Assembly (NCBI GenBank): GCA_009773475.1
Contig: WSXV01000010.1
Location: 1-64,000 of the forward strand
Length of the DNA stretch: 64,000 bases
Source of the DNA: Desulfobulbaceae bacterium
GTDB lineage: Bacteria; Desulfobacterota; Desulfobulbia; Desulfobulbales; Desulfocapsaceae
Direction: 5' to 3'
The first letter of the stretch is position 1. Each line of letters opens with the position of its first letter. Of this stretch, positions 8,202-28,847 are shown piece after piece. The notes below the pieces were generated by a model. That model saw only the letters and a list, made by a program, of their open reading frames with translations. It was not told the DNA's origin and did not search any database. A program made the translations under genes and the position numbers.

Positions 8202-8209
8202 GATATATT

Positions 8210-8214
8210 CCTCC
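8210..8214 (-). promoter_or_regulatory. Flagellin 1 Shine-Dalgarno overlapping an ATGGA motif
   Basis: GGAGG sits 8 nt upstream of the flagellin ATG. The sequence ATGGAGG contains ANGGA, the core of CsrA binding sites, so CsrA binding here would block ribosome entry. It sets the start at 8201. Confidence 0.7.
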
Positions 8215-8242
8215 ATGAATATTGGTTGATGGGGTACTGCTT

Positions 8243-8256
8243 GGGCTTCCTTGCCC
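8243..8256 (-). promoter_or_regulatory. Putative CsrA-binding hairpin in flagellin 1 leader
   Basis: The minus strand reads GGGC-AAGGAA-GCCC: a 4-bp GC stem presenting AAGGA in a six-base loop, the preferred presentation of a CsrA site. It is about 35 nt upstream of a second ANGGA at the Shine-Dalgarno, the two-site arrangement known from Bacillus subtilis hag. The csrA-fliW pair in the same window makes this functionally plausible. Binding itself is inferred. Confidence 0.6.
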
Positions 8257-8357
8257 GGTTTCAAAAAGTCTACTGCTCTATTTACTGTCGGTTTGTTCTT
8301 GTGATGTTTTCTGGGTTGGCGGCACCTCCTTGCTGGAATTTTTCCTTCTTAAATTTT

Positions 8358-10036: not shown

Positions 10037-10056
10037 TTCTTGCCTCTCCGTGAGAA

Positions 10057-11188: not shown

Positions 11189-12415
11189 TTACTGAATCTT
11201 TAGTTGTGGCACCGCCGTCACAAATTGTCCGCCCCATTCTTTGATATAGCTTAATTGCTGCATTACTTCACCACACAGATTCCAGGGCAGGATAAGTACC
11301 CGGTCCGGCTTGTTTTGCCGTAGATGGGCCTCGTCAACAATGGGAATCCTGCTGCCGGGCATGAATTTCCCCTGTTTGGCCGGGTTGCGATCAACCACAT
11401 ACCTTACCAGATCAGGACGAACTCCGGCGAAGTTGAGCAAGGTATTGCCCTTGGCCGCCGCGCCATAGGCGGCGACGGATAAACCCTGGCGTCCGGCCTC
11501 GATCAAGAAGAGGAGCAGATCGTTCTTGACCTGCTCGGCCTTTTCTTGCAGACCGGCATAAAAATCAGCCCCGGTCATTCCGGCAGCATTTTCTTCCTGA
11601 AGGAGATTTGCCACCCGGTCACTCTGTTCATGTTTCCCAAGGTCGGCCCGCTGAGCGTAGACTCTCAGGCTGCCGCCATGGGTGGGCAAATGTTCCACGT
11701 CAAAGATCTGCATTCCCTGACTGGACAAGATGGTTTCCACTGAAATGAGTGACAGGTAGGAATAGTGTTCGTGGTAGACGGTATCAAACTGATTTTCCCG
11801 CACCAGTTTCAGGAGATGGGGAAATTCAAAAGTGGCCACGCCCTGGGGCTTCAGCAGGATTGTAAACCCTCGCACAAAATCATTGATATCTGGGACATGG
11901 GCGAGGACATTGTTTGCCGCGATCAGATCGGCTGCATGTCCTTCCTGAACAAGGGATTGAGCCAGTTTTACACCAAAGAAATCCTCGATGATCTCCAGCC
12001 CTTTTTTTCGGGCCGCTCTGGCCGTCCCGGCAGTGGGTTCAATGCCCAGACAGGGGATTCCGGCCTGTTGAACAAATTGCAGGAGATAGCCGTCGTTGGC
12101 GGCGATCTCCACCACCGTGCTCTGCGCTCCCAGGCCAAATCTTTTCACCATGGCGTGGACGTACTGGTGCGCATGTTTGAGCCAGGTATCGGAAAAGGAG
12201 CTGAAATAGGCGTAATCAGCGGCAAAGAGGGCATCCGCACGGGAAAAATCCTCGGTTTGCACCAGCCAGCATTGTTCACACACCATCACTCGCAGGGGAA
12301 ACCACTGCTCTGGGGCATGCAGGGTGTCCAATGTGAGATAGGCGTTGGATGGCGGCGCCGAACCCAGATCAAGAAAAGGCCGTTGCAGCGCGGCCCCGCA
12401 ATGGCGGCAGTTCAA
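11189..12415 (-). CDS. Sugar C-methyltransferase (TylC3/NovU-like)
   Basis: 408 residues with the three-part layout of nucleotide-sugar C-methyltransferases: an N-terminal zinc-binding module with CxxC pairs (CRHCGAAL near residue 3 and CEQCWLV near 46), a central SAM-binding Rossmann domain (VVEIAANDGYLLQF, about 100-113) and a C-terminal domain. The YHEHYSYLSLISV motif (about residues 214-226) includes the catalytic HEH region of this family. These enzymes add methyl to C3 or C5 of a 4-keto-6-deoxysugar. Its start overlaps the epimerase stop by 4 nt (ATGA), indicating translational coupling. Confidence 0.88.
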   Translation of the reverse strand: MNCRHCGAALQRPFLDLGSAPPSNAYLTLDTLHAPEQWFPLRVMVCEQCWLVQTEDFSRADALFAADYAYFSSFSDTWLKHAHQYVHAMVKRFGLGAQSTVVEIAANDGYLLQFVQQAGIPCLGIEPTAGTARAARKKGLEIIEDFFGVKLAQSLVQEGHAADLIAANNVLAHVPDINDFVRGFTILLKPQGVATFEFPHLLKLVRENQFDTVYHEHYSYLSLISVETILSSQGMQIFDVEHLPTHGGSLRVYAQRADLGKHEQSDRVANLLQEENAAGMTGADFYAGLQEKAEQVKNDLLLFLIEAGRQGLSVAAYGAAAKGNTLLNFAGVRPDLVRYVVDRNPAKQGKFMPGSRIPIVDEAHLRQNKPDRVLILPWNLCGEVMQQLSYIKEWGGQFVTAVPQLKIQ

Positions 12416-12972
12416 GGACAGACTCCTTTAAAACCAAGAGAGATGAAGGGATGGGACTGATCCCGCTCCGATATCTCCGTTACCGGGAGCGGCCAATCAA
12501 TGGCCAGTTTTGGATCCCGAGGATTCAGGCCACCTTCCGATCCGGCGGCATAGGCCGCCGAGTGGCAGTAGAGCAGTTCTACGTCATCGCTCAGGGTTTG
12601 AAAGCCATGAGCGCAACCCACCGGGATCAGCAGGGCCAAACCGTTTTCAGCGGACAGGCAGGCTCCATGCCAATGAAGAAAGGTGGGAGATCCAGGCCTG
12701 AGGTCAACAGCCACATCCCAGACTTCACCGCGCAGACAGCTGACCAGCTTTATCTCGCAATGGGGCAGGTGTTGAAAATGCATGCCCCGTATTGTACCTT
12801 TGCGGATGGTGGCCGTGTGATTGATCTGGGCGATTGGTTTATTCCAGCCAAAGGCGGCCAATTCTTCAGCACAGAACAGCCGGGACAGAAAGCCCCGGGA
12901 GTCGGCCAGTTTTTGCCGTTGCAGCTCCAACAAACCGGTCAAAGGCGTTTTGGTGATCAGAAAACGGTTCAT
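12412..12972 (-). CDS. RmlC/RfbC-type nucleotide-sugar 3,5-epimerase
   Basis: 186 residues, the usual length of dTDP-4-dehydrorhamnose 3,5-epimerase family cupins. Conserved features are the DSRGFLSRLF opening, the catalytic-His region RGMHFQ (about residues 64-69), and the CAHGFQTL strand with the family His. Next to CDP-glucose genes it most likely epimerises CDP-4-keto-6-deoxyglucose at C3 and/or C5, as NovW does on the dTDP sugar. It overlaps rfbG by 4 nt upstream and the C-methyltransferase gene by 4 nt downstream. Confidence 0.88.
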   Translation of the reverse strand: MNRFLITKTPLTGLLELQRQKLADSRGFLSRLFCAEELAAFGWNKPIAQINHTATIRKGTIRGMHFQHLPHCEIKLVSCLRGEVWDVAVDLRPGSPTFLHWHGACLSAENGLALLIPVGCAHGFQTLSDDVELLYCHSAAYAAGSEGGLNPRDPKLAIDWPLPVTEISERDQSHPFISLGFKGVCP

Positions 12973-14027
12973 GATTGGCCCTCAAACTCGGTAATTTCCG
13001 ACAAACAGAGGGTTTGCGGGTCATCCCCCCGGCTTTGCCGGCTGGACCAGCGCATCGTTCGTGCAATGGCCTCTTCCAGTGACCATTTTGGCGCTACACC
13101 CAAAGTCGTTCTGGCCTTGGCGATTTCCAAGGCCAGCCAACCGGCTTCATGCGGCCCTTCACTGCCGTCACCCCAAACGACCTGACCCCGGCCGTAGCTT
13201 GCGCGCGCCAGTTCGATGACTTCCCGAACCGTTGCGGCACTGCTTGTTTCCGGGCCGAAATTATAGGCCCCGGCCAGATCGGGTGTGCGCCAGAGTTTTT
13301 CGGCGAGGAGCAGATACGCTGCCAGTGGTTCAAGCACATGCTGCCAGGGGCGGATGGCCTGTGGGCGACGTACTTCCAGTGGGGTTCCCGACTCCCAGGT
13401 CCGCACGGCGTCAGGGATCAGGCGGTCTGCCGACCAGTCGCCGCCGCCGATGACATTGCCGGCCCGGGCAGTGGCCACGGCCACACCCTGTTTGCCGAGA
13501 AAGGCGTCACGGTAGCTGGCGGTCACAATCTCGGCGGCGGCCTTGCTGGCACTGTAGGGGTCATGACCGCCCAAGGTGTCTTCTTCCCGGTAAGGATAGG
13601 GCCATTCCTGATTTTTATAAACCTTGTCTGTGGTGATGATGACTGCCACTTTGACGCTGTCAATCCCGCGCAGGGCATCAAGCACATGGGCGGTGCCCAT
13701 GATGTTGGTGGCAAGTGTCGCCAGGGGTTGGTGATAACTGGTGCGGACCAGGGCCTGAGCGGCTAGATGAAAAACAATGTCGGGGGCGGCCTCTTTGATA
13801 ATCCCGGCAAGCTGCTCCGCGTCTCTGATATCTGCGTATCGGCTGTCGATCAGTTCACTCACCCTGGCCAGAGAGAAGAGATTGGGGGTGGTAGCGGGCG
13901 GCAGGGACACCCCGGTTACTTTGGCGCCAAGACGGGAGAGCCACAAGGCCAGCCAACTGCCCTTGAATCCGGTGTGGCCGGTGAGCAGTACCCGCTTGTT
14001 TGCCCAGAATGATCTGTCCGGATTCAT
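12969..14027 (-). CDS. rfbG: CDP-glucose 4,6-dehydratase
   Basis: 352 residues from the ATG at 14027, which overlaps the rfbF stop as TAATG; an ATG 15 nt upstream is less likely because the family begins near the NPDRSFW segment. GHTGFKGSWLALWLS (residues 17-31) is the characteristic NAD-binding start of CDP-glucose dehydratases; ITTDKVYKN and YSASKAAAE carry the catalytic Thr/Asp/Lys and Tyr/Lys. The enzyme converts CDP-glucose to CDP-4-keto-6-deoxyglucose in the cytoplasm. No RfbH-type C3 dehydrase is nearby, so the product is not expected to be a 3,6-dideoxyhexose. Confidence 0.95.
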   Translation of the reverse strand: MNPDRSFWANKRVLLTGHTGFKGSWLALWLSRLGAKVTGVSLPPATTPNLFSLARVSELIDSRYADIRDAEQLAGIIKEAAPDIVFHLAAQALVRTSYHQPLATLATNIMGTAHVLDALRGIDSVKVAVIITTDKVYKNQEWPYPYREEDTLGGHDPYSASKAAAEIVTASYRDAFLGKQGVAVATARAGNVIGGGDWSADRLIPDAVRTWESGTPLEVRRPQAIRPWQHVLEPLAAYLLLAEKLWRTPDLAGAYNFGPETSSAATVREVIELARASYGRGQVVWGDGSEGPHEAGWLALEIAKARTTLGVAPKWSLEEAIARTMRWSSRQSRGDDPQTLCLSEITEFEGQS

Positions 14028-14797
14028 TACCACACCTTCCATGGGGCCTTACCGCTTTGCCATAGATCTTCCAGCATGTTTTTCTCGCGCAGGGTATCCA
14101 TCGGCTGCCAGAAGCCATCGTGCTCAAAGGCCATCAGCTCACCATCGGCGGCAAGGCCGGTCAGTGGTTCAAGCTCCCAACTGGTTGTGTCGTCGGTGAT
14201 TCGATCCAAACATCCCGGAGAGAGCACAAAAAAACCGCCATTGATCAGGCCGCCGTCGCCGCGTGGTTTTTCGGTAAATCCCTGAACCCGATCTCCGGCG
14301 ATGGCCAGGGCGCCATAACGACCGGGAGGTTGCACCGCCGTCACCGTCGCCAGTTTTTTATGGGAGCGATGGAAGGCAATAGCCGCCGAGATATCGACAT
14401 CGGCAACACCGTCACCGTAGGTAAAGCAGAAGGCCTTGTCATGTTGTATGTATTCGGCCACCCGCCGCAGACGGCCGCCGGTCATGGTCTCCTCGCCGGT
14501 GTCGACAAGGGTTACTCGCCATGGTTCGGCGTGACGTTGATGGACCTCCATGTTGTTGTTGGCCATATCAAAGGTGACATCGGACATATGGAGGAAATAA
14601 TTGGCGAAGTACTCTTTGATGACATACCCTTTATAGCCGCAGCAGATCACGAATTCGTTGACTCCGTGCGCTGAGTAGAGCTTCATGATATGCCAGAGAA
14701 TGGGCTTGCCGCCGATCTCGATCATGGGCTTGGGTTTGAGATGGGTCTCTTCACTGATCCGGGTGCCTAAGCCCCCTGCCAGAATGACGGCTTTCAT
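14027..14797 (-). CDS. rfbF: Glucose-1-phosphate cytidylyltransferase
   Basis: 256 residues, standard for Rfb[21 protein letters not shown] at residues 6-25 is the nucleotidyltransferase signature in its cytidylyltransferase form; [14 protein letters not shown] is the metal-binding region. It makes CDP-glucose from CTP and glucose-1-phosphate, the first committed step of the local sugar pathway. Its ATG overlaps the stop of the upstream glycosyltransferase gene by 4 nt and its stop overlaps rfbG, so glycosyltransferase and donor synthesis are translationally linked. Confidence 0.96.
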
Positions 14798-17217
14798 TGT
14801 TGTTCCTCACACCATTTTGTAAACATTGCTCTATATGCCTCTTCTACCTTACGGGTAAAACCGGGTTCATCCATGAGTGGACTTTGTTCCATTTCTTGGC
14901 GGAGATCGGCACGAATGGTGGTAAGTTTTAGAAGATCGCCAGCAAGTGCTACCGTTTTTTCAATATATTCCTCTTCTGTCTGCGCGATCCATTCCGGGTG
15001 GCCAATAGCTTCAAGGATGGAGCTACCAAGGCGGCCGACACTGGGGCGGTCGGCAAGCGTGATGAAAGGTACGCCCATATAGAGGGACTCAATAAGTGTA
15101 GTCCCTGAATTGTGGGGGAAACAGTCAAGTCCGATGTCTATACTTCGCAGGACATCCCATGGAGGACTGGTGTAGCCGATTTTTAGACGATTTCGCTCAA
15201 TCCCATGGTCGGAGAATTTTGCCGATAATATCTCCTGCATAGAAGAATCTTTGAAACTACCACTGTTTATTACCAGTATGGATTCCGGTATCTGTTTGAG
15301 TATCTCCGCCCAGACCCGAATCGTTCGATGATTGATACGAACCACCCTGCTTAAACATCCGAAGGTGATGTGGCCGCGTTCCATGGCTGGTAATAAATTT
15401 ACAGGCCCCATGCCTTCTGTGGGGCGATAGGCAAGACAAGGTGTCTCTAAATGCCATGGGGTTTCTGAAAACAAATCTTCGCTTCCCGCAGGAACACAGG
15501 CATTGTCGGCAAGGTAATAGTCAATAGCTGTCAAGCCGGTGGTATAGCCAAAATCGAGCCAGTGCAGGGAGACCGGCGCCGGTTTGCGTGCAAAGACCAG
15601 AAGGCGGTTACCGCCGGTGTGACCGGCAATATCAACCAGAATGTCAATGCCATCGGTACGGATGCGCTGTGCCATGTCGTTATCGGTCATCCCTTTAGTT
15701 GGTATCCAGTGATCCATATAGGAACGGTATCGGTCAGTGTCCGCATCTTCTTTATTAAGTTCGGCATAGGCGTAGAGCTCAAACATATCTTTGTTGTGAA
15801 GGGACAGTAATGGTTCGAGAAAGTTACGGACAGGGTGCCGGCAGAACTGGGGTGACACATAGCCTATTCTCAGGCGGCGGCCTTTGGCTTGAGTGTTGTT
15901 ATGTGGTTTCCATTGGGAACGGAGGGGCAGGCCAAAGTGTTCGTCAAATCTGAGATATTCTTGAAATATTTCCTTTCCTGTCTTGTCGGGATGGTTATTC
16001 AGGAGGAAGAGGAGATTGCTATATGCCTCTGTAACATCTGGATTCGAGGTAAGAATATTACGGAAAATGATCTCTGATTCATCAAGACGACCCTGCTCCT
16101 GCAGGATATTCCCCAGATTGTTATAGGCCATCTTGTTGTCAGGATATGCGTGGAGCACGGCGCGATAGCTTTTTTCGGCCTCGATAATCCTGCCCTGTGC
16201 CCTAGCGCTGTTTCCTAAATTGATCAAGGCCTCGGGGTAATCGGGTTTGAGTCTTAGGGCTTGAGTGAAGCAGTCTTTGGCCTCACTGTGTCGATCCTGG
16301 CCGGCAACGGCGATGCCAAGATCGTAAAAGGCCTCGGCATTGTCTGGTTCCATTGCCAGTACTTGCCGGCAGTAAAACTCGGAGTCTGCATGTTTGTATT
16401 GATGGGAGAGTGTTCTGGCAAGATTATGTGATACGGCGAGAGAGAAAGGGCTTATCGCCAAGGCCGTCCTGTAAGCTGTTTCCGCTTCATCATAACGCAT
16501 TTGCTCGTTGAAAAGACCACCCAGTGAATTGTAAGCTTCTGCATAATCCGGCTTCAGGGTAAGTGCCTGGCGGCAGGCGGCCTCGGCCTCATCTTGTCTG
16601 TCAGTGGCTTGCAGGGTGAGGCCCAAGCCACAATATGCCTCCGCAAAAGATGGATTTAATACCAATGCCTGACGATAACATATTTCTGCTTCAGAAAAGG
16701 ATTTCCTGTCATGGAGAATGAGGCCAAGGTTCGCAAGGTATTCCGTGGAATTTGGCTGTAGCTTCAGGGCTCGTCGGCAACTCTGTTCGGCGGCGGCTAG
16801 ATTGTTTTGTGACCTCAAGGCGATACTCAAGGTATTGTGGGCATCGGCGTAATCTGGTTGCATGGTCAATGTTCGCCGGCTGTACTTTTCGGCATCAACA
16901 TATCTTCCCAGATCGCAGAGGAGAGTGGCGATGTTACGCAGACAGATATAATCTTCCGGCATAACGATACTTGCCTGTTTCATTGCTGATAAGGCCTCGT
17001 CGAATGCGCCCTGTTGTCTGCGGATGGCGCCCAGCACTTTCCAAGCGAGATTGTGTCGCGGAAAATGCCTGATCAGTGATTGAACGACGGATTCAGCCTC
17101 GCTAATATCCCCTTGCTGGAAAAGAGCGATCAGTCTGCTTGTCTCTTCGGGGGGCGGGGAGATGGTTTTGTTTCTGCCCCCTGTTTGTCGCTTTGATTTG
17201 TTTCTTTGGATTCTCAT
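14794..17217 (-). CDS. TPR plus GT41 (SPINDLY/OGT-like) glycosyltransferase, single module
   Basis: 807 residues from the ATG at 17217, which overlaps the stop of the giant upstream gene (ATGA). Residues about 1-30 are basic; about 35-400 are tandem TPRs (NLG/AEAY pattern every 34 residues); about 430-800 form a GT41 catalytic region with [42 protein letters not shown] and [18 protein letters not shown]. It is the fifth module of a series, closely related to the four in the preceding protein. Probable role: O-glycosylation of flagellin in the cytoplasm before export, inferred from family and position. The residue aligning with human OGT Lys842 is Arg ([14 protein letters not shown]). Confidence 0.9.
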
Positions 17218-20200
17218 GGTAGTTTCTTGGAGGGGACGGGAAGGGCCGATGCCGGTGCAGGTGTATGCTTTCCGTCCGTGCACCATTTTGTAAACATTTT
17301 CCGGTAGGCTGTCTCCACCTTGCGGGCAAAAGCGGGTTCGTCCATCAGGGGGCTTTGTTTCATTTCTTGTCGCAAGCCAGCGCGAAGTGTTGCCAGTTTC
17401 GGCAGATCACCAGCAAGTGCTACCGCCTTTTCAATGTAATCCTCTTCTGTTTGTGCGATCCATTCCGGGTGTCCGGTACTTTCGAGAATGGAGCTGCCAA
17501 GGCGGCCGACGCTGGGGCGGTCCGCCAGTGTAATGAAGGGGCTTCCCATGTAGAGGGTTTCAATAAGGGTTGTGCCTGAGTTGTGGGGAAAGCAGTCAAG
17601 GCCAATGTCCATGTCGCGCATAAGATCCCATGGAGGACTGGTAAAGCCTATTTCCAGTTGTTCACGGTTGACACCCTGGGCGATAAATTTCTCTGTTAAA
17701 GCGTGCTGGGTGGTAATATCTTTGTAATTGCTGCTATTGACAATCAAATGTGCGCCTTGTACCCGGTTGAGTATCTCGGACCATACCCGTATTGTTCGGT
17801 GATTGATGCGAAGAGCCCGAGTAAGTGTGCCAAAGGTGATATAATTCTTCCGTAATGCGGGTAGAGAGCCTACCTCTCCCATTCCTTCAGCCGGACGGTA
17901 AACCAGGCAGGGCGTTTTCACCCGCCAGGGAGTTTCAGCGAAGAGTCCTTCGAAACCTTCGGGGACATTGGTAGGGTCGGTTAAATAATAGTCAATTGCC
18001 GTTAGCCCTGTCGTATATCCGAAATCGAGCCAGTGCAGGGATACAGGAGCGGGTTTTCTGGCAAAAACGCCTAAGCGGTTTCCTCCGGTATGGCCTGATA
18101 TGTCCACCAGTATGTCAATTCCGTCTGTCCGAATACGTTCAGACAATGCGGCATCATTGAGACTTGATGTTTGTAGCCAGTGATCAGCATATGCTATATA
18201 ACGACGGGTTGCTTCAACTTCAGCGAAAAAGTCTGTGTAGATGTAAATTTCTACCTGGGCCTTATCATGGGAGGCAAGCAGAGGTTCAAGGAAGTGTTGT
18301 GTTGAGTGCTTGCCAAGTGTTGATGATATATATCCAACTTTTAACCGTCGATTTGCTTGGCGATTATTGGTAAAAGGCTTCCATTCTGTTTGCAGGGGAA
18401 TGCCAAATAACTTGTTAAATTGTTTGTACTCGGCATAAATATCCTTTGCTGTTTTGTCGGGGTAATTATTAAGAAGAAAAAGTAAATTACTATATAGTCC
18501 AGGAGAATCAGGCAATAATTTTATTGCCTGACGATAATTTGCCTCTGATTCCTCGAGTCTGCCTTGTTCCTTGAGTAGGTTCCCGAAATTATTATATGCT
18601 TCGGCGTAATCAGGTTTTAGCAAAAGTGCTTTGCGAAAATAGGCTTCTGCTTCGGAGTATCCCCCGTTTTTGAGTTGTGAAATTCCTAAGTTGTTATAAG
18701 CTTCGGCATAATGAGGATTATATTCGATTGCTTTTAAGTAATAGCTATAAGCCTCGGAGGGGAGTCCTTTGTCGTTTAGTGCCAGTCCGGCACAGTTATA
18801 AGCCTCTGCAAATGAAGGGTGAATTTGTATTGCTTTCTTGCAACAATCCACCGCTTCCGTTGGGCGTCCTTGTTTGATGAGTGTTTTCGCAAGGTTACAA
18901 TAAGCTCTTGAGCAGTCTTGTTTTAATGTTATTGCTTGCCTGTAATTTGACTCAGCCTCTGAGTATTGTTCTTTGTGTTGTAAAATATCTCCTAAATTCA
19001 AGTAGGCTTCCGCGAGTCCTGGGTTGAGTTTTAAGGCGGCCCTTGTTTCACTTTCTGCCTCCCCGTATTGACCCTTTCCGAAAAGAATGATGGCATAATT
19101 ATTATGATAGTCAGCATCATAAAGCAATAATGGTGATGCTTGTTGCATAACTGAAAGCGCCTCGTCTAATTTTCCTTGTTGTTGAAGGGCAGCCCCCAGC
19201 ACCTTCCACGAAAAACCGTCTTTTGGAAACCGCTGAATGAGTGATCGCGCAAGTATTGCGGTTGCGGCGAAGTTGCCTTGATTAAAGAGGGAGAGTATTT
19301 TTTTTATTTCATCTGGATGTGGCTTGGCGATTTTATGGCTTGTGGTATGGAGTTGCGCGGATGCCGTTTTCTGATTTGTGTCTTGGGTTGATGACTGCTC
19401 ACTGTTGCTCCAAAAGGCAAACATCTCTTTGTAGGCTGCTTCAACTTTGCATGTGAAGGCGGGCTCGTCCATCAATGGGCTATTGCTCAATTCTGCGCGG
19501 AGGTTTGCGCGCAAGGCGGATAGCTGAGATAAGTCAGAGGCAAGTGCTACCGCTTGTTCTATATATTCAAGTTCGGTATGGGCGATCCATTCTGGATGTC
19601 CAAGCCCTTTAAGTATCGCACTGCCGAGACGTCCAGTGCAGGGGCGATCTGCCAAGGTGACAAAAGGGATGCCTAAATACAGGTTCTCCAGGAGGGTGGT
19701 GCCGGAGTTGTGGGGGAAACAGTCAAAGCCGATATCAATGCCTCGGAGCACATCCCAAGGTGGACTATGGAAACCGATTTCTAGCTGCTCGCGGGCGATG
19801 CCATGAGTGATAAACTTGCTTATGAGTTCATCCTGGCTGGATTTGTCTTTGAAGTCGCTACTGTCGATTATGAGATGTGAGCCTTCGACCCGTTTGAGTA
19901 TTGCAGACCATACCGAAATTGTTCGGTGATTGATACGAAGGGATCGCGTTAGTGTGCCAAAAGTAACATAGCCACGCTCTAAAGCTGGTAAGGGGGAAAC
20001 CTCTCCCATCCCTTCTGCTGGGCGGTACACGAGACAGGGCGTTTTGATTCGCCAGGGAGTTTCTGACAATAAATGTTCACTACCTTTCGGAACTGTTGTC
20101 TCGTCGGTGAGATAGTAATCAATTGCTGTCAGGCCGGTGGTGTAACCAAAATCGAGCCAGTGCAATGAAACAGGAGCGGGTTTTCTGGCAAAAACTCCAA

Positions 20201-23200
20201 GGCGATTGCCTCCTGTATGGCCTGCCAGGTCAATGAGTATGTCGATATTGTCGGAGCGAATACGTTCTGTGAGGGCGACGTCGTTGATTCCCGTGCATTT
20301 TACCCAATGGTCAACATAGGATTTGTATCGATCAGTGACCTCATCCTCATTAATTTGATCGGTATACACATAAATTTCAAAGGCTTTTTTATGATGATGC
20401 GCAAGCAAAGGTTCAAGGAAGTGTCGTGTTGAATGCTTACTAAAGTTTGATGAAACATAGCCTATCTTCAGGCGACGCTTTGTTTTGTGATTGTTGGAGA
20501 AGGGTTTCCATTCTGTTTGTCGAGGAATGCCGAATATGGAATCAAATATTCGGTATTCCTCGTAAATTTCTTCGCTGCTTTTGTCGGGATGGTTGTTTAG
20601 GAGAAAGAACAGGTCGCTGTAGGTGCTTGGGGATTCCGGTTGCAGTGCTATGGCTTTGCGTAAGTAGTTTTCCGCATCCAAGAGTGTCCCTTGTTTGACA
20701 CAGGTGTTGCCAAGATTCTGGTATGCAACCGCATAATCCGGTTTAATTGCCAATGCCAGTTGATAACATGCTGCGGCCTCTGTTAATTTGCCCTGGTCCT
20801 GATAGATGAGTCCAAGATTGTTGTTTGCTTCGGGTAAATCAGGATTAAGGATAAGTGCCTGTTTACAGATATCTTCAGCTTTGGTCAACGAACCTTGTGT
20901 CCTGAGTGCAAGCCCGAGATTATTTAGTGCTTCCGCAGAATCCGGCCGGATTTGTAAGGCCGTTTGAAAGGTGTTGACGGATTCTGAGAGCTTGCCTTGC
21001 GCCCTTAGAATATTGCCTAAATTACAATGTACTTCGAAAATATCCGGTTTAATTTCTATGATGCGGCGGTAACAGTTCTCTGCCTCTGTCAGTTGGCCTT
21101 TTCCTTTGAGAATATTTCCAAGGTTATACAGTGCCTGGGTGTGATTTCTGCTGATCTCTAAAGTCCTGCCATAGCTGTTTGCTGCTTCAGTCAAAAGACC
21201 AGACCGTTCACGGGAGATGCCGAGATTGAAGTGTGTATCCGGATCATCTGGAAGACAGATTGTCGCTTGCAACATAGCCTGGCCAGCCTCTTCATACAAT
21301 CCCTGCTGATGAAGAAGTGGTCCTAATACTTTCCAGCCGAACCCGTAGTGTGGAAACCTGGTTGTTAATGACCGAGCAAGTGGTGTGGCATCATTTAGAT
21401 TGCCCTGATTAAACAGTTCAATGAGCTTGTTGATCTCGATATTTGAAGGAGTTAGGGACTCTATTTCTTTGGCACGTTTTTTTTGGGAAACATTTTTGTC
21501 CAGTTGTCGCGTCGATGTATCCTTTTTTGATTTATGATCCTTTACGGTGGTTTTTGGCTGAGCATCACACCAGAGCCTAAACATCTCCTGATATGCATTT
21601 TCTACTTTCCCGGCGAAACCCTGTTCATCCATTAAGGGGCTCTTTTTCATATCCTGTCGGAGATTGGTACGGATCTCTGAAAGTTTCAACAGATCTGCAG
21701 CAAGTGATACAGCTTTAAGAATATATAGATCCTCGTTTGCGGCGATCCATTCCGGATGACCTATTCCTTTAAGAATGGCGCTGCCAAGCCTGCCGACGCT
21801 TGGCCGGTCTGCAAGGGTAATATAAGGCACTCCCATATAAAGGCTTTCTATCAGTGTTGTTCCTGAATTGTGAGGAAAACAGTCTAGTCCTATATCCATT
21901 TTTCGTAACACATCCCAAGGTGGGCTGGTGTAACCGATATCTAGGCGTTGTCGTTCGATGCCGTGTTCAAGAAAACGAGCGGCAAGGATCTCTTGCATGG
22001 CCGGTTCACTGTAGCTGCCGCTGTTGATGATAAGACGAGAGTCTGGGCATTTCTTGAGGATTTCGGCCCACCGCAAGATCGTCCGGTGATTGATACGCAC
22101 GGCCCGTGTCAAGGTGCCAAAGGTAACGAACCCGTTTGTCAGTGCCGGCAGGGCATTGATATTTCCGGTTTGTTCTGGAGGACGATAGGCCAAAGCCGGT
22201 GTTGTGAGGTACCAGGGTTTCTCCGAGAAGAATTTCTTGCTTCCATCAGGGACTGATATGTGATCGGTCAGGTAGTAGTCAATGGCGGTCAGTCCGGTGG
22301 TATAGCCAAAATCCAGCCAGTGCAGGGAGACCGGGGCGGGTTTTCTGGCAAAGACACCGAGTCGGTTATGAGCAGTATGACCGGCCAGGTCAATGAGTAC
22401 ATCAATGGCGTCACTGCGGATACGCTCGCTGAGCTGTTCGTCAGTCATTGCCTGGGTGGGAACCCAATGATCTACAAAGCTATAAAACAAGTCATTTTTT
22501 GCTTCATCCTCAGAGAGTTGGACATAGGCGTAAATTTCCAACAGCGATTTGTCATGATGGGCAAGCAAAGGGCGAAGGAAATATCGGGATGGATGCTTTC
22601 GGTAATCAGGTGCGACATATCCGACTCGCAAGCGCCGATTCTTGAGCGGGGAATTTGTGTGTGGTTGCCAGGCTGTATGATGGGGTAGGAAAAACCGGGA
22701 GTTGGCATCCTCATAGGCCTGGAAGATTTCTTCCTGACTTTTATCCGGATCATAGTTCAGGGTGTATAAAAGGGTGCTGTAGGCATCAATATTGTTGGGG
22801 TCAAGGACCAGAACGTGTCGGAGGCAGGTTTCTGCCTCTTCCTGGCGACCTTGTTCTTGAAGATTATTGCCCAGGTTATACAGGGCATTAATGTGATCGG
22901 GCTTGAGCTGAAGCGTTTTTCGATATGCTTCCTCTGCTTTGAGGAGTATGTGCTTGAGTTTATAGGTATTACCCAGATTATACCAGGCATCAGCGTAATC
23001 CGGGTTCAGGGCAAGGGTACGAAGAAAACATGCTGCCGCGTCATCGAACTTTCCTTCCTGCTGAAAAATGACTCCTAAATTGTTACTGGCCTCGGTGAAA
23101 GTGCTGTGAAGATTAATTGCCTGAATATATGCTTTTTTTGCCTCACTGAGTCGATTTGCTATCTGGTGTTGAACTCCAAGGTTATAGTAGCGAATCGCAG

Positions 23201-25625
23201 TATCTTTTGTAGCAGAAATTTTTTCGGTAGTGGTGAGAGCATTGTCTTTGGTCTGGGATATTGCGGATGAGGATGTTGTGCTCCATTGTTGAAACATTTG
23301 TTGATAGGCGTCTTCGAATATTTTCGTAAAACCCTGTTCGTCCATCAGGGGAGATTTTTGTAATTCACTCCTCAGATTACTGCGAATAGCTGCTAATCCA
23401 GGAAGATCGGAGGCTAGAGTGACCACCTTTTCAATATATTCTTCTTCATTGAGGGCGATCCATTCCGGATGACCCGCTCCTTCCAGAACGGTGCAGCCAA
23501 GTCTCCCGATGGCTGGTCGGTCTGCCAGGGTGATGAAAGGGACACCAAGATACAGGCTTTCGAGTAAGGTCGTGCCTGAATTATGGGGGAAGCAGTCAAG
23601 GCAAATGTCCATGTCCCGCAGTACATCCCATGGAGGGCTATGGTACCCGATCAACAGGCGGTTGCTGTCTATTCCGTGCGATGCAAAGCGTGCCTTCAGA
23701 TCCTCTTGTATTTTCTGATCCTTAAAGTTACCACTATCGATAATCAGTTGAGCCCCCTTGACTCGGTGGAGAATTTCCGACCAGACTCGGATGGTACGGT
23801 GGTTGATACGTATAGCGCGGGTCAGGGTGCCGAAGGTAACATGTTTCCGGTTTAAAGCAGGTAGTGAACTGACGTCACCCATCCCCGCTGCCGGGCGGTA
23901 GACAATTGCAGGGGCCGGCAGGCGCCATAATTGTTCAGAAAAGAGGTGCTCGCTGCCCATGGGAGCATTATGAATATCGGTGAGGTAGTAATCAATGGCG
24001 GAGAGCCCGGTTGTATAGCCAAAATCCAGCCAGTGGAGAGAGACTGGGGCTGGTTTTCTAGCAAAAACTCCTAGTCGGTTCCGTCCTGTATGTCCAGCCA
24101 GATCAATCAGAATGTCGATCCTGTCATCGCGGATTTGTTGAGCCAGTGTATCATCGGAAAGCCCACTCGTCGGTATCCAGTGATCCATATGCTGTTTGCA
24201 GGATAGCGTCGCCTGATCTTCTCTGATTGTTTCCGAATAGGCAAAGATCTCAAATTTGCTTTTGTCATGATGGGCAAGCAGGGGTTCAAGAAAAAGGAAG
24301 ACCGGATGGCTGTAGAAGGCGGGCGAAACATAACCGATTTTCAGGCGGCGTTGAGTGTTATGGCTGTTAATGTGGGGTTGCCATTGACTTCGTAGAGGAA
24401 GACCAAATTGCTTGTCGTACTCACGATAGAGCTGAAAGATATCATCAATACTGGCATCGGGATGGTAGTTTGAAGCAAAGAGCAGGCCATCGAAAGCTTC
24501 GGCGTAATCTGGCTTAAGGGCGAGTGCTTTTTCATAACAGCTTTGGGACTCTGTCAGACGTCCTTGGCAATGAAGGGTATTGGCAAGATTATTCCAGGCG
24601 ACAGCTAAATCTGGTTTGAGTTCCAACGCCTTGTGTAGATGGGATTCTGCATCCGACAATCTGCCCTGTCCCTGCAAAAGATTCCCAAAGTTGTTGTATG
24701 CTTCTGCAGAAGACGGATTGAGTTGCAGGGCTTTCTGAAAGCTTGCCGCTGATTCGGTCAGACGCCCCTGGTCTCTCAGGTTGATTCCGAGATTGCAGTG
24801 GGCCTCGGCATAATCTGGCTGCAATACCAAGGCTTGACGCAAGAATTTTTCTGATTCGGTCAACCGTCCCTGCGCCATGAGGGTGACGCCAAGATTGTTG
24901 TGGGCCTCAGAAAATCCTGCACGAAGGGTAATGGCCTGTCGAAGGGAGGTCTCTGAACCTTTGAGATCTCCTGTGTTTTTGAGAGTAATGCCCAGATTGT
25001 TATGAGCATCAGGGTCGCTGGGCAGCAGAAGCACTGCTTGTTGCATTGCAAAAATAGCTTCTTGGGGCCGATTTTGTTGCTGAAGAGTAGCTCCAAGAAT
25101 TTTCCAAGTGAAGCCATTTTTTGGAAAATTTTCGAGAAGGTGGAGAGCTAATTGTTCGCAGGCAGAAAAATTGCCTTGCGTGTAGAGAGAGAGCAGATCG
25201 TCGTTGTCTTCTGGTTTACTGATAAATTTTTGACTGATTTTTGCATTCAGACGTGCAGTCAGGGTATCTACTTCTCGGCCTGTCAGGCCGGCCTGTTGTG
25301 CCATTGCCAAAGTTTGGCAGGCGGCATCTGTTTGACCAGCCTGGTCAAGAGCATCGATATAGGCAAGCCAGTAAGGCCCGTACTCGGGATTTTGGTCGAT
25401 GGCTGCTTCGAAGTGAGCGAGGCTTGCATCAGCGTGATTTCCACGAATGGCGAGCAAACCAAGGAGATAATGGGATTCGGGATGATTAGGCTGAATCTCG
25501 AGAATGGAGTTGCAAATTTCTGCAGTTTTAACGTCCTGACCATTTGTGAAGCTGCTATGGGCCTGTTCCAGTAACAACTCGAGCGTTGAGTTGGGGGAGT
25601 GGTCAATAATGGGAGGCTGAGGCAT
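17214..25625 (-). CDS. Giant four-module TPR/GT41 glycosyltransferase (2803 aa)
   Basis: One uninterrupted 2803-residue protein with four TPR-plus-GT41 units, roughly residues 1-780, 780-1355, 1355-2070 and 2070-2803. Each unit ends in a catalytic region with GYxxxxxxxHP/HS, [17 protein letters not shown], [11 protein letters not shown] (near residues 533, 1102, 1822, 2532), INHRTI and [11 protein letters not shown]. All motifs are intact in all four, so all may be active. Residues 1-140 are an extra N-terminal TPR-like domain. Units 1, 3 and 4 start with a shared FPxxGFxWKxLG cap; unit 2 lacks it. It lies between flagellin 2 and the sugar genes, so flagellin is the likely acceptor. Signal peptide and membrane helices are absent. 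The ATG at 25625 has no strong Shine-Dalgarno. Substrate and processivity are unknown. Confidence 0.9.
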   Translation of the reverse strand: MPQPPIIDHSPNSTLELLLEQAHSSFTNGQDVKTAEICNSILEIQPNHPESHYLLGLLAIRGNHADASLAHFEAAIDQNPEYGPYWLAYIDALDQAGQTDAACQTLAMAQQAGLTGREVDTLTARLNAKISQKFISKPEDNDDLLSLYTQGNFSACEQLALHLLENFPKNGFTWKILGATLQQQNRPQEAIFAMQQAVLLLPSDPDAHNNLGITLKNTGDLKGSETSLRQAITLRAGFSEAHNNLGVTLMAQGRLTESEKFLRQALVLQPDYAEAHCNLGINLRDQGRLTESAASFQKALQLNPSSAEAYNNFGNLLQGQGRLSDAESHLHKALELKPDLAVAWNNLANTLHCQGRLTESQSCYEKALALKPDYAEAFDGLLFASNYHPDASIDDIFQLYREYDKQFGLPLRSQWQPHINSHNTQRRLKIGYVSPAFYSHPVFLFLEPLLAHHDKSKFEIFAYSETIREDQATLSCKQHMDHWIPTSGLSDDTLAQQIRDDRIDILIDLAGHTGRNRLGVFARKPAPVSLHWLDFGYTTGLSAIDYYLTDIHNAPMGSEHLFSEQLWRLPAPAIVYRPAAGMGDVSSLPALNRKHVTFGTLTRAIRINHRTIRVWSEILHRVKGAQLIIDSGNFKDQKIQEDLKARFASHGIDSNRLLIGYHSPPWDVLRDMDICLDCFPHNSGTTLLESLYLGVPFITLADRPAIGRLGCTVLEGAGHPEWIALNEEEYIEKVVTLASDLPGLAAIRSNLRSELQKSPLMDEQGFTKIFEDAYQQMFQQWSTTSSSAISQTKDNALTTTEKISATKDTAIRYYNLGVQHQIANRLSEAKKAYIQAINLHSTFTEASNNLGVIFQQEGKFDDAAACFLRTLALNPDYADAWYNLGNTYKLKHILLKAEEAYRKTLQLKPDHINALYNLGNNLQEQGRQEEAETCLRHVLVLDPNNIDAYSTLLYTLNYDPDKSQEEIFQAYEDANSRFFLPHHTAWQPHTNSPLKNRRLRVGYVAPDYRKHPSRYFLRPLLAHHDKSLLEIYAYVQLSEDEAKNDLFYSFVDHWVPTQAMTDEQLSERIRSDAIDVLIDLAGHTAHNRLGVFARKPAPVSLHWLDFGYTTGLTAIDYYLTDHISVPDGSKKFFSEKPWYLTTPALAYRPPEQTGNINALPALTNGFVTFGTLTRAVRINHRTILRWAEILKKCPDSRLIINSGSYSEPAMQEILAARFLEHGIERQRLDIGYTSPPWDVLRKMDIGLDCFPHNSGTTLIESLYMGVPYITLADRPSVGRLGSAILKGIGHPEWIAANEDLYILKAVSLAADLLKLSEIRTNLRQDMKKSPLMDEQGFAGKVENAYQEMFRLWCDAQPKTTVKDHKSKKDTSTRQLDKNVSQKKRAKEIESLTPSNIEINKLIELFNQGNLNDATPLARSLTTRFPHYGFGWKVLGPLLHQQGLYEEAGQAMLQATICLPDDPDTHFNLGISRERSGLLTEAANSYGRTLEISRNHTQALYNLGNILKGKGQLTEAENCYRRIIEIKPDIFEVHCNLGNILRAQGKLSESVNTFQTALQIRPDSAEALNNLGLALRTQGSLTKAEDICKQALILNPDLPEANNNLGLIYQDQGKLTEAAACYQLALAIKPDYAVAYQNLGNTCVKQGTLLDAENYLRKAIALQPESPSTYSDLFFLLNNHPDKSSEEIYEEYRIFDSIFGIPRQTEWKPFSNNHKTKRRLKIGYVSSNFSKHSTRHFLEPLLAHHHKKAFEIYVYTDQINEDEVTDRYKSYVDHWVKCTGINDVALTERIRSDNIDILIDLAGHTGGNRLGVFARKPAPVSLHWLDFGYTTGLTAIDYYLTDETTVPKGSEHLLSETPWRIKTPCLVYRPAEGMGEVSPLPALERGYVTFGTLTRSLRINHRTISVWSAILKRVEGSHLIIDSSDFKDKSSQDELISKFITHGIAREQLEIGFHSPPWDVLRGIDIGFDCFPHNSGTTLLENLYLGIPFVTLADRPCTGRLGSAILKGLGHPEWIAHTELEYIEQAVALASDLSQLSALRANLRAELSNSPLMDEPAFTCKVEAAYKEMFAFWSNSEQSSTQDTNQKTASAQLHTTSHKIAKPHPDEIKKILSLFNQGNFAATAILARSLIQRFPKDGFSWKVLGAALQQQGKLDEALSVMQQASPLLLYDADYHNNYAIILFGKGQYGEAESETRAALKLNPGLAEAYLNLGDILQHKEQYSEAESNYRQAITLKQDCSRAYCNLAKTLIKQGRPTEAVDCCKKAIQIHPSFAEAYNCAGLALNDKGLPSEAYSYYLKAIEYNPHYAEAYNNLGISQLKNGGYSEAEAYFRKALLLKPDYAEAYNNFGNLLKEQGRLEESEANYRQAIKLLPDSPGLYSNLLFLLNNYPDKTAKDIYAEYKQFNKLFGIPLQTEWKPFTNNRQANRRLKVGYISSTLGKHSTQHFLEPLLASHDKAQVEIYIYTDFFAEVEATRRYIAYADHWLQTSSLNDAALSERIRTDGIDILVDISGHTGGNRLGVFARKPAPVSLHWLDFGYTTGLTAIDYYLTDPTNVPEGFEGLFAETPWRVKTPCLVYRPAEGMGEVGSLPALRKNYITFGTLTRALRINHRTIRVWSEILNRVQGAHLIVNSSNYKDITTQHALTEKFIAQGVNREQLEIGFTSPPWDLMRDMDIGLDCFPHNSGTTLIETLYMGSPFITLADRPSVGRLGSSILESTGHPEWIAQTEEDYIEKAVALAGDLPKLATLRAGLRQEMKQSPLMDEPAFARKVETAYRKMFTKWCTDGKHTPAPASALPVPSKKLP

Positions 25626-25814: not shown

Positions 25815-25850
25815 CATTAAGGGCCGGTTGTTGAAAACCGGCCCTTAATG
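25815..25850 (-). terminator. Hairpin terminator of flagellin 2
   Basis: A perfect 15-bp inverted repeat (CATTAAGGGCCGGTT and its complement) with a 6-nt loop, 14 nt after the flagellin stop. The T-tract on the minus strand is weak. It resembles the flagellin 1 hairpin in position and GGGCCGG core. Confidence 0.75.
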
Positions 25851-25864
25851 AAGGGGAGAAGGAT

Positions 25865-27952
25865 TTATCCCTGCAGTAACTGCAGTGCCAACTGTGGAGT
25901 CTGGTTGGCCTGGGCGAGGATGGCGACGCCGGCCTGCTGGAGAATATTGTTCTTGGTCATGGCTGAGGTTTCCTGGGCGATGTCGGCGTCGAGAATCCGG
26001 CTGCGGGCGGCAGACAGGTTCTCAGAGACATTCTGCAGGTTGGAAATGGTGGACTCAAACCGATTCTGGATCGCGCCCAGATCGCCACGAATGGTGTCGA
26101 TCTGGCTGACGGCGCCGTCGATGGCTTTAATGGCGTCGGATGCGCCTTCGACGGTGCTGATGTCAACTTCATCAATAGAGCTGAGGTCGCTGGCGTTGGC
26201 AACCCCTGCCGCACTGTTAAAAAGGGAACCAGCTGATCCTGCCAGACTGCTGCTGACATTAAAGGTCCCTGTGCTGTAAAAAGTGACCTGGCCGCCAATA
26301 ACCGTAGAGTCGTTTGCACTGCCGGTATTGCCAATGAGTGCGACACCCGGGCCTTCATTGCCGTTGATGGTCATGGTGGCAGCGGCACTATTCAAACTGT
26401 GGGTATAATCACCAATCTGTATATCATATCCAGCGGCCTGAGTCAGGGTAATGCTGGTCTTGTTACCACTCAGGGTGGCTGTGATACCGGTATTGCCTGC
26501 CTGATCATTAATTGCTTCAGCGAGTGTGGAAAGATCATCTGTGGATACAGTGGCACTGATTGGAATTTTTGTAGCATTACTGCCTTTCAGGGTGAAGCCA
26601 ATGGTACCGTCACTGACCAGTTTGGAAATGGTGGCGGTGGTTCTGGCCTCAGCAGTCACACCGGTGATCGCTGATTCGAGATTGATGGTATGGGCGATGG
26701 CATTGGCACTGTCGTCTGGGGCTATAACGGCGGGTCTGGTATTTTCGGGACCCACGATGGACAGCACCTGGCCAGCGACGTTATTGCCAGCGTCGGTATC
26801 AGTCGTGCCAAGACCGCTCAACCCTTCTTCCCCTGCTACGACGCCAAGAGAGGTGCCATTTGAAACTACGGAGGCAACAGTTGAGGCTGCATCAAAGGTG
26901 TAAACAGCAGTAGCTCGTTGATCATATCCAACATCTGCCGTATTTGAAGATGATGGAAATGTTCCTGTCGTGCCATCTGCTTTGTCAAAAGTAATGTTCC
27001 CGACTAGACTCGTGCCACCAGTCACTGCATTAACTGCGAGATTGGTTCCATCGGTAATGGAATAAGTCAGTGTTTTAGCAGTATTGTCAAGCGTGAAACC
27101 GGCTACAGGTGCAGTTTGTGTTAAAGTGTTAGGAGCAGTTACTGTAAAGGCATAAGCAGTGCCTCCGATAGTTATACTCACACTGTTATTTGCAGCAGCT
27201 CCAGTAATTCCAGAAAGATCAAAAACCAGGGAATTCGTGTAAGTTGCACTAGTGGCTCCGAGGGTTATTGCGAGAGCGGCGGCATCGGCACCTGCAGCGA
27301 TTGTTGTTTCCGTACCAGCAAGATTAGTTACTGTAAGTGCTTCTGTGGGTGTTGCCAAATTCGACACTGACAGGGTGGTGCCCGTTGCAGAATGGGTCGC
27401 AGCCTCAATACCAATAGCGTTGGTTGATGCAAGGGCGTTAATTCCAAGATCCCCGGCCTTGGCAGAGGGAATGGAAAAAGAAATGGTCTCGCCGGCATTG
27501 GCGCCCACCTGGAACTGGGCATTATTCAGATTGCCGTCGAGGACGTTTCTGCCGTTAAACGAAGTGCTGCCGGCGATACGAGTCATCTCTTGCTTGAGCT
27601 GGTTGACTTCGGCCTGCAGGGAGGCACGGTCAGAGGCGCTGTTGGTGTCGTTGGCGGACTGGATGGCCAGTTCGCGCATACGCTGGAGGATATTGGTGGT
27701 TTCCTGGAGCGCGCCCTCAGCTGTCTGGGCCATGGAAATGCCGTCGTTGGAATTTCGGGCGGCCTGGTTGAGTCCCCGGATCTGGGAGGTCATCCGGTCG
27801 GAAATGGCAAGGCCTGCCGCGTCGTCTTTGGCCGAGTTAATTCTCAGGCCGGAGGAAAGCCGCTGCATGGAGCGGGAAAGGTCGTTCTGTGATTTACCAA
27901 GATTGCGTTGCGCGTTTAATGATGGAACGTTTGTATTGATTGTGAGTGCCAT
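25865..27952 (-). CDS. fliC: Flagellin 2 (695 aa, enlarged central domain)
   Basis: Second flagellin. Residues 1-175 ([18 protein letters not shown] onward) and the last about 100 (to [12 protein letters not shown]) are the conserved D0/D1 regions, nearly the same as in flagellin 1. The central domain is about 190 residues longer, Thr/Ser/Ala-rich, with immunoglobulin-like beta repeats, and would form a large outer D2/D3. It is likely heavily O-glycosylated by the adjacent GT41 proteins (inferred). GGAGG precedes the ATG by 8 nt. A sigma-28 promoter is about 115 nt upstream, but its leader lacks the CsrA-type hairpin seen in flagellin 1. Confidence 0.96.
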
Positions 27953-28094: not shown

Positions 28095-28134
28095 GGGGGT
28101 TGTGTGTAAAATGTTGGTACGGTGAAAAAAGTTT

Positions 28135-28287
28135 ACCACCCCCGGCCCCTCCTAAAACAGGAGGGGAGTCAAAGCAGAAGTGCTTTCTTGAAACGGGAGG
28201 GGGATTGTGCTGGAAACGCTTTTTTAAAACAGGGGGGGCATAAACAAAAAGCCCCCTCCTTGTTTTTAAGGAGGGGTTGGGGGTGGT
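28135..28287 (+). repeat. Left unit of DUF559-associated repeat, with terminal inverted repeats
   Basis: A 153-bp unit starting ACCACCCCCGGCCCCTCCT and ending with its near-complement (AGGAGGGGTTGGGGGTGGT), 17 of 19 matching. It is a direct repeat of the unit at 28678-28835 on the other side of the nuclease gene. Its right end supplies AAGGAGGGG and a GTG that probably start the nuclease gene. Internal hairpins are terminator-like on the minus strand. Confidence 0.8.
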
Positions 28288-28720
28288 TTTCAATATTAAT
28301 TTTAAGGATATTATACCAATATTTCATAATCGCTCGGAACTAGAATCCATTCGTAAAGAATTGCGTAACAATGCTACCCCTGCAGAAATTAAACTCTGGG
28401 GTAGGTTGCAACGGAGCAATCTGGACGGGTATAAATTTCGGCGACAACACAGTGTCGGTCCATATATTTTGGATTTTTATTGTCCTTCTGAAAAGTTGGC
28501 CATTGAGCTTGACGGAGATTCACACTTTACGAACGAAGCGATAACGTATGATACTGCGAGGACGGCGTATTTAAATGCGCTCAATATCAAGGTGCTTCGG
28601 TTTTTGAATACGGATGTCTTTGACAAACTGATAGCGGTTTGTGAAAGAATTTTGGTGGAGTTAAAAGGGGAAAGCTTACCACCCCCGGCCCCTCCTAAAA
28701 CAGGGGGGGAGTCTTGGTAA
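28283..28720 (+). CDS. DUF559 endonuclease-like protein (Vsr/PD-(D/E)XK fold)
   Basis: 145 residues from a GTG at 28283 preceded by AGGAGGGG from the flanking repeat; TTG at 28277 is an alternative. The core matches DUF559: RKELRNNATPAEIKLWGRLQ, YKFRRQHSVGPYILDFYCP and KLAIELDGDSHF, giving the D...ExD catalytic pattern of PD-(D/E)XK nucleases (Asp of ILDFYC, Glu and Asp of AIELDGD). The last about 15 residues (SLPPPAPPKTGGE) are encoded by the right repeat unit and look like read-in, not domain. It is the only plus-strand protein gene and interrupts the flagellar cluster, consistent with acquisition. Confidence 0.85.
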   Translation: MVFNINFKDIIPIFHNRSELESIRKELRNNATPAEIKLWGRLQRSNLDGYKFRRQHSVGPYILDFYCPSEKLAIELDGDSHFTNEAITYDTARTAYLNALNIKVLRFLNTDVFDKLIAVCERILVELKGESLPPPAPPKTGGESW

Positions 28721-28835
28721 AAGTGCATTTCTGAAACAGGAGGGGGATTGTGCTGGAAACGCCTTTTTAAAACAGGGATGTAGGCATAAACAAAAAAGCC
28801 CCCTCCTTGTTTTTAAGGAGGGGGTTGGGGGTGGT
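28678..28835 (+). repeat. Right unit of DUF559-associated repeat
   Basis: A 158-bp direct copy of the left unit, with the same terminal inverted repeats and the same internal order (TGCTGGAAACGC, CATAAACAAAAA, GCCCCCTCCTTG). Its left end encodes the Pro-rich tail and stop of the nuclease gene. Its right end lies 12 nt from the fliW stop. Confidence 0.8.
28792..28824 (-). terminator. Rho-independent terminator after fliW, supplied by the repeat
   Basis: On the minus strand a 10-bp stem (CCCCCTCCTT and complement, loop AAAAAC) is followed by C or G and TTTTTT. It lies 24 nt after the fliW stop and is the inner hairpin of the right repeat unit. A similar hairpin occurs in the left unit. Confidence 0.8.
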
Positions 28836-28847
28836 TTTAGCTAGAGA

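Follow-up and report, generated by a model that had tools for sequence, protein, structure and literature searches.

The window analyzed here, a stretch of 64,000 nucleotides from a Desulfobulbaceae bacterium, is a flagellar gene cluster by its Pfam content and encodes five intact modules, each a TPR array followed by a GT41 catalytic core. Four of them lie in one 2803-residue protein and the fifth in the next gene. The cores are conserved by their position in the chain, carry the same substitutions in the donor part of the active site, and adjoin a cassette for a CDP-linked sugar. We infer a flagellin acceptor, a CDP-sugar donor, and a division of labor among the positions, and slightly favor the reading that the two genes specify a cytoplasmic flagellin O-glycosyltransferase of five ordered TPR-GT41 modules, which would take a CDP-6-deoxy-3-C-methyl hexose as donor and serve position-specific acceptor sites. 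The GT41 features are as follows:

17214–25625, minus strand: four-module TPR-GT41 protein, 2803 aa (frame and Pfam)
24504–25481, minus strand: module 1 TPR array, 7 TPRs detected (TPR profile)
23241–24470, minus strand: module 1 GT41 core (profile/alignment)
22794–23189, minus strand: module 2 short TPR array, 4 TPRs (TPR profile)
21528–22757, minus strand: module 2 GT41 core (profile/alignment)
20631–21326, minus strand: module 3 TPR array, 7 TPRs (TPR profile)
19368–20597, minus strand: module 3 GT41 core (profile/alignment)
18504–19199, minus strand: module 4 TPR array, 7 TPRs (TPR profile)
17247–18470, minus strand: module 4 GT41 core (profile/alignment)
14794–17217, minus strand: fifth module, separate gene, 807 aa, 11 TPRs and a GT41 core at 14797–15999 (profile, TPR count, and tree)

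Translated on the minus strand, 17214–25625 is a single ATG-to-TGA frame, and the plus-strand translation of the same interval is riddled with stops. Pfam PF13844 (Glyco_transf_41) matches the protein with 529 bits in eight stretches, alongside long TPR arrays, which fits the N and C halves of four cores. In a profile search of the genome, the two GT41 genes together gave five N-half and five C-half matches, all ten above the curated cut-off that places each core in GT41. The motif [20 protein letters not shown] recurs in the four-module protein at residues 522, 1093, 1813, and 2522, and [11 protein letters not shown] at residues 677, 1248, 1968, and 2677; the residue after the His of the HP/HS motif is P, P, S, and S in cores 1 to 4. 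Module order is TPR(7)-core-TPR(4)-core-TPR(7)-core-TPR(7)-core, with repeats counted by a TPR profile built in this analysis, and the five cores of the locus can be aligned over 411 columns at a mean column identity of 74%. The protein does not belong to the HMW1C-type N-glucosyltransferases, since it scores 76.9 bits with NF049992 against a cut-off of 1000. An earlier note on this DNA had described four full TPR-plus-GT41 modules in one frame, and the domain search confirms it, finding four catalytic cores and not fewer.

That note had also named an assembly collapse as what would undo the claim. Core-to-core DNA identity is 61–67% and the longest exact match is 26 nt, so the array is neither chance nor a collapsed repeat; position-orthologs in other genomes, and relatives that carry versions with two to five cores beside the same neighboring cassette, likewise rule out a repeat artifact.

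The fifth-module gene, next downstream and absent from the earlier note, has a listed frame that begins at 17286 (830 aa), but the ATG at 17217, which overlaps the stop of the four-module gene as ATGA, looks the likelier start. These five cores are exactly the GT41 complement of the source genome assembly (3.03 Mb, 26 contigs, 91.5% complete). In a 40-core tree, the fifth module groups with position 5 of five-core chains (98/99); therefore, the 4+1 arrangement of the window reflects either the splitting of an old five-module chain or an unfused state of that chain.

The predicted structure of module 5 (mean pLDDT 91.4) is a TPR superhelix joined to a two-lobed GT-B core, an architecture that modules 1 to 4 share by sequence. 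Against the PDB, this model matched full-length SPY (E = 1.6e-52), Thermobaculum terrenum OGT (TtOGT; TM 0.91 on target length), and also OGT, with SPY among the best matches by sequence and the best by fold; PHROGs gave no match for the module 5 core. Structure prediction of each unit, which the earlier note had proposed, thus succeeded for module 5, whereas a model of core 1 with module 2 (pLDDT 66.8) was too poor for inter-module geometry. Arabidopsis SPINDLY (7y4i, 8dtf) and human OGT share the TPR superhelix and GT-B core, but they have one core each and use GDP-fucose or UDP-GlcNAc. TtOGT (5djs) is similarly a bacterial GT41 without intervening domain and also has one core; its wild type keeps the donor-site Lys according to PMC4683255, the Met at that place in 5djs being the engineered K341M mutant.

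Active-site residues were assigned by alignment to SPY, with residue roles taken from PMC9715652. None of the five window cores has lost the equivalent of His495 or of Thr748. SPY Lys665 (OGT Lys842), the donor-phosphate lysine of OGT and SPINDLY, is Arg in five of five, and the Y744 position of the donor pocket (Cys in OGT, Tyr in SPY) is His in five of five. PMC9715652 names Tyr744 as the likely sugar-holding residue. It also reports that mutation of SPY K665 abolishes activity; therefore, either the Arg works with a different donor or the cores are inactive. The substitutions extend to a clade of 66 cores, which has Arg at K665 in 66 of 66 and His (61) or Gln (5) at Y744, against Lys at K665 and Tyr or Phe at Y744 in seven other GT41 cores of the same alignment. 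Among the single-module cores, four have Gln at the place of His495, and Thr748 is missing from two; in the cores of the window and of its multi-core relatives, the equivalents of His495, GHT, and Thr748 are all present.

Because Lys is replaced by Arg and Tyr by His, and because the gene abuts a CDP-sugar cassette in 42 of 45 related loci, the donor is probably neither UDP-GlcNAc nor GDP-fucose. The name OGT/SPINDLY used in the earlier note is therefore not supported as regards the donor, Arg, His, and a cassette for a CDP-linked branched deoxysugar all pointing elsewhere. The fold and the best solved relatives (SPY and TtOGT) might suggest an enzyme of OGT/SPINDLY type that puts O-GlcNAc or O-fucose on many cytoplasmic proteins, but this is highly improbable in view of both substitutions in every window core, the loss of activity on mutating SPY K665, and the flagellar locus with its CDP cassette.

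The GT41 genes and the sugar cassette sit between two flagellin genes. On one side of this island are FliS, FliD, and one flagellin, and on the other the second flagellin, FlgL, FlgK, FlgI, FlhA, FlhB, FliP, FliM, FlgE, FliK, the export ATPase, FliG, and FliF. The flagellins and the cassette genes are:

25865–27952, minus strand: flagellin 1, 695 aa, candidate acceptor (PF00669/PF00700)
14027–14797, minus strand: glucose-1-phosphate cytidylyltransferase, RfbF (TIGR02623 479.8 bits, cut-off 300; 1tzf E = 6e-132)
12969–14042, minus strand: CDP-glucose 4,6-dehydratase, RfbG (TIGR02622 474.7 bits, cut-off 278; 1rkx E = 4e-108)
12412–12972, minus strand: RmlC-like sugar 3- and/or 5-epimerase (PF00908; only 137 bits against a cut-off of 156 for the rmlC equivalog)
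11189–12415, minus strand: sugar 3-C-methyltransferase-like protein, relative of TcaB9 (PF08421/PF08484; 5t64 E = 1.5e-68)
10057–11127, minus strand: FkbM-family methyltransferase (Pfam/NCBIfam)
9209–10060, minus strand: NAD-dependent epimerase/reductase (SDR), candidate 4-ketoreductase (PF01370; weak relatives only in the PDB)
8565–9215, minus strand: serine-acetyltransferase-like protein, candidate sugar acetyltransferase (no Pfam match; NCBIfam matches below cut-off)
6675–8264, minus strand: flagellin 2, candidate acceptor (PF00669/PF00700)

A flagellin neighborhood, taken in this analysis as a mark of FlmG-like transferases, is present on both sides of the island, and the earlier description of four intact GT41 modules beside flagellin genes holds. 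RfbF and RfbG belong to the CDP-glucose route to 3,6-dideoxyhexoses. The window cassette shares these two enzymes but continues with a C-3 methyltransferase and an RmlC-like epimerase, and no C-3 deoxygenation gene was found among the seven cassette proteins scanned with Pfam and NCBIfam, nor was any gene of a nonulosonic acid donor pathway. From the known chemistry of these enzyme families, the product would be a CDP-6-deoxy-3-C-methyl hexose. No other glycosyltransferase was found among the 37 window proteins scanned with Pfam, a scan that left aside some frames of at least 150 aa and short frames.

The nearest relatives are in Desulfocapsaceae and Desulfobulbaceae. Among 93 family genomes, 11 carry this type (best score above 600 bits), each with at least two core matches, and same-genus genomes with flagellins but without this GT41 exist. 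G008, G059, and G095 (Desulfobulbaceae bacterium BRH_c16a) each have five cores in a single frame, G079 has four, G016, G062, and G078 have three each, and G033 has two, compared with 4+1 in the window; the locus of G035 is cut by contig ends. In the single-contig genome G030, a five-core gene (L046, 3417–14886) has two frame breaks, from decay or sequencing error. A wider contig scan gave 45 related loci, including Undibacterium, Acidovorax, Rhodoferax, Simplicispira, Maritalea, and other proteobacteria. Outside the family these mostly have one core, with two in one frame in four loci (L063, L065, L066, and L067) and two adjacent one-core genes in L085. No relation was seen by eye between module number (2–5) and either flagellin number (0–3 matches per genome) or flagellin length, and a dependence of the one on the other was set aside.

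RfbF overlaps the GT41 gene or follows it within 114 bases in 42 of the 45 related loci, which differ in core number; the same cassette thus accompanies one to five modules. Of the three exceptions, L068 and L100 run into contig ends, and L070 has a flagellin downstream and its other side cut. Near other GT41 types, RfbF was found in none of 16 loci, although for seven of these the flank was only ∼1.5 kb. Of the family genomes, all 11 that carry this GT41 have a CDP-glucose dehydratase, versus 9 of the 82 others (Fisher 2.8e-9, with shared ancestry ignored).

Three intermediate-score GT41s from a separate sample of 397 Pseudomonadota genomes, chosen before their residues or neighbors were known, extend the comparison. 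Those of G725 and G650 (Pseudomonadota) combine Arg, His, and Thr with adjacent RfbF, RfbG, and C-methyltransferase genes at flagellar loci, an RmlC-like neighbor not being found at the GT41 locus of G650; that of G634 has Lys, His, and Val at the three sites, in a genome with no dehydratase. In G448 and G500, Arg occurs with Tyr, Phe, or His and with Ile at Thr748, and the cassette is not next to the genes read; one G500 core has both Arg and His, and no CDP-glucose dehydratase was found in that genome. These two cases refute a strict rule that Arg means a CDP donor; by itself, Arg is no predictor of the donor. A dehydratase somewhere in the genome (8 of 13 genomes overall, none of three from the window's own phylum) was discarded as evidence in Pseudomonadota, since 8 of 10 have it whatever their GT41 type, carriers of the Lys/Tyr type included; there, only cassette adjacency informs on the donor.

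The cores group by chain position and not by genome. A 73-core tree was built from the window, 29 of the 45 related loci (near-duplicates omitted), and 9 of 15 loci of a second set, three of those omitted from the latter being the same DNA as loci among the 45; cores covering ∼340 model columns or fewer were dropped, including the frame-broken ones of G030. The position-1 cores of nine genomes group together with 100/100 support, and so do the position-2 cores of nine genomes (100/100); support is weaker for a 3/4 group (81/72) and a position-5 group (85/91). Neither tree cleanly separates positions 3 and 4, and the long branches flagged in the larger one lie outside the clade of interest. In the 40-core tree, forcing the five window cores into one clade costs 333 log-likelihood units (p-AU 2.5e-44), ruling out a recent duplication of all five within the window genome, and the labels change 7 times by position versus 28 by genome, counted without a shuffled-label control. 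The last module of G016, with only 6 TPRs, falls in the position-5 clade of the 73-core tree (85/91) and outside it in the 40-core tree.

Cores of position-2 type are preceded by 3–4 TPRs in all nine chains that have one, and position-5 modules have 9–12 TPRs in G008, G059, BRH_c16a, and the window and 11 in both modules of G033. Of the alignment columns, only that of SPY Ser496, which in SPY sets the orientation of the acceptor serine, is fixed within every class yet differs between classes (four position classes in ten genomes, read off the tree): it has Pro in classes 1, 2, and 5 and Ser in 3/4, in 38 of 38 cores. The position clades show non-equivalence, not different acceptor sites.

Should the modules instead do the same job at the same sites, tandem copies would serve only to increase the local concentration, or the processivity along the stream of flagellin. 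A donor-site signature common to all cores, the range of two to five modules among relatives, and single-module versions beside the same cassette in Undibacterium and Maritalea agree with this. We nevertheless find it rather doubtful, because positions keep separate cores, and position 2 its short TPR array, across genomes, whereas turnover within genomes would be expected of interchangeable copies and has seemingly happened in G033, which has two position-5-type cores and none of the other positions. That some modules lack activity and act solely as scaffolds for recruiting flagellin, a reading compatible with the others, is suggested by the variation of the Ser496 equivalent among positions and by the change from Lys to Arg. 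We consider it unlikely: all five positions are similarly constrained (pN/pS 0.17–0.31 in 24 orthologous core pairs, with synonymous sites near saturation), the His495, GHT, and Thr748 equivalents persist in the window and its multi-core relatives, and purifying selection on the cores at all positions argues for their predicted activity.

The earlier note had proposed multi-site or sequential modification of one acceptor. The multi-site part remains the best reading, given ordered, non-equivalent positions and the TPR number of position 2, whereas sequential addition of different sugars is disfavored because all five cores share one donor-site signature. An assembly line in which successive modules add successive sugars and build a glycan on one site would suit an ordered chain, but we regard it as very unlikely with a single signature in all cores and a cassette that is one nucleotide-sugar pathway; moreover, GT41 enzymes with a known acceptor act on protein.

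In the multi-site reading that we favor, the four fused modules and the fifth, made from the overlapping next gene, would form an ordered five-module chain. Each TPR array would hold a flagellin and present Ser/Thr to its own core, and all cores would draw on a single CDP-activated 6-deoxy-3-C-methyl hexose, which the downstream cassette would make and might also O-methylate or acetylate. Because the positions have kept distinct cores, each would most likely serve its own acceptor site or flagellin, so that one binding event could yield several modifications before export. More tentatively, and with somewhat less than even confidence, the five non-equivalent GT41 sites may amount to a programmed multi-site modification of flagellin with a CDP-linked C-methyl deoxysugar, their module set being inherited as a unit and shrunk, duplicated, or split across species. 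We know of no GT41 with such a donor. What guides TPR glycosyltransferases such as OGT in their choice of site among many is an open question, and cores in fixed order with their own TPR arrays, in relatives with one to five modules, fused and split, could make site choice mappable module by module. With the Arg/His active site beside a CDP-sugar cassette, a further kind of GT41 donor can likewise be tested directly.

GT41 proteins in flagellin islands of Enterobacteriaceae (PMC4875605) and the TPR-GT flagellin transferase FlmG (PMC7591256) are already known. FlmG of Caulobacter crescentus, as described in PMC7591256, is a soluble protein with a TPR domain that interacts with flagellins and a C-terminal GT domain, and the window modules have this architecture (N-terminal TPR, C-terminal GT); it differs in having one module, 596 residues, and a pseudaminic acid donor, compared with 4+1 modules and a CDP-deoxysugar cassette. 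The likeness is to the description of FlmG, not to its sequence; PF13844 matches do occur in a Caulobacter vibrioides control genome, in a gene unassigned to FlmG. The enterobacterial islands place a GT41 with a SPINDLY domain in flagellin loci, but these GT41s are mostly fused to methyltransferase domains, and the available sections of PMC4875605 describe no multi-core chain; their authors suggested GlcNAc derivatives while allowing wider specificity. Among the island types, one (23) encodes synthesis of CDP-4-keto-6-deoxyglucose. Among the matches listed from open-licence PMC papers, none concerned multi-core GT41 proteins or a CDP-sugar GT41.

The earlier statement that GT41 enzymes have one TPR array and one core fits published descriptions in part, but the four-core window protein departs from it and genomes elsewhere hold proteins with two to four cores. 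In the sample of 397 Pseudomonadota genomes, at least 122 have matches at E 1e-20, a lower bound with at most four candidates scored per genome. Eleven regions from nine of these genomes, picked for long frames or high scores, were read. They contain frames with four cores (G504), three (G472 and G512), and two (G472, G488, G512, G516, and G448, the last Arg-type), and one core per frame in G491, G500, and G781. Since Lys-type chains of two to four cores and the Arg-type frame of G448 occur elsewhere, polymodularity is recurrent in GT41, and a four-module chain unique to this family or type is ruled out. In 296 genomes of the window's own phylum, 29 have a match, and one region was read from each of three of them; the survey suggested by the earlier note yielded two-core frames in these three (G308, G335, and G154), a three-core frame of another type in G031, and the two- to five-core relatives. 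What is distinctive here is the module number, the position-wise inheritance, and the CDP-sugar context.

Some of these loci merit description in their own right. In G504, L117 (254–11596) spans 3781 codons with four Lys/Tyr-type cores and ∼34 TPRs. Frames with two to three cores lie in the loci L118–L121, L123, and L124. In G031, of the same family as the window, L047 (6601–13554) has 2318 codons and three Lys/Phe-type cores, one reported as two pieces, with no RfbF in the available flank. In G500, L126 (1656–11161) holds a run of three TPR-GT41 genes in which Arg replaces Lys665 and Ile replaces Thr748, next to genes that by eye are metK- and ahcY-like: another variant active site in a different context.

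Two further features of the window lie near flagellin 1. A GC-rich inverted repeat at 25815–25848 (minus strand), seen by eye, immediately follows the stop codon of the flagellin and precedes the GT41 start by ∼190 bases. It may be a terminator, in which case the GT41 gene would be transcribed separately; it is absent from the output of a terminator scan. At 28128–28838, a DUF559 gene (28277–28720, PF04480) is flanked by direct repeats of 107 nt and 45 nt. Elsewhere in the genome, short pieces of this repeat occur at 18 places, 16 of which have its palindromic final ∼45 nt, and the segment looks like a small dispersed or mobile element between the flagellin and FliW/CsrA (named by eye).
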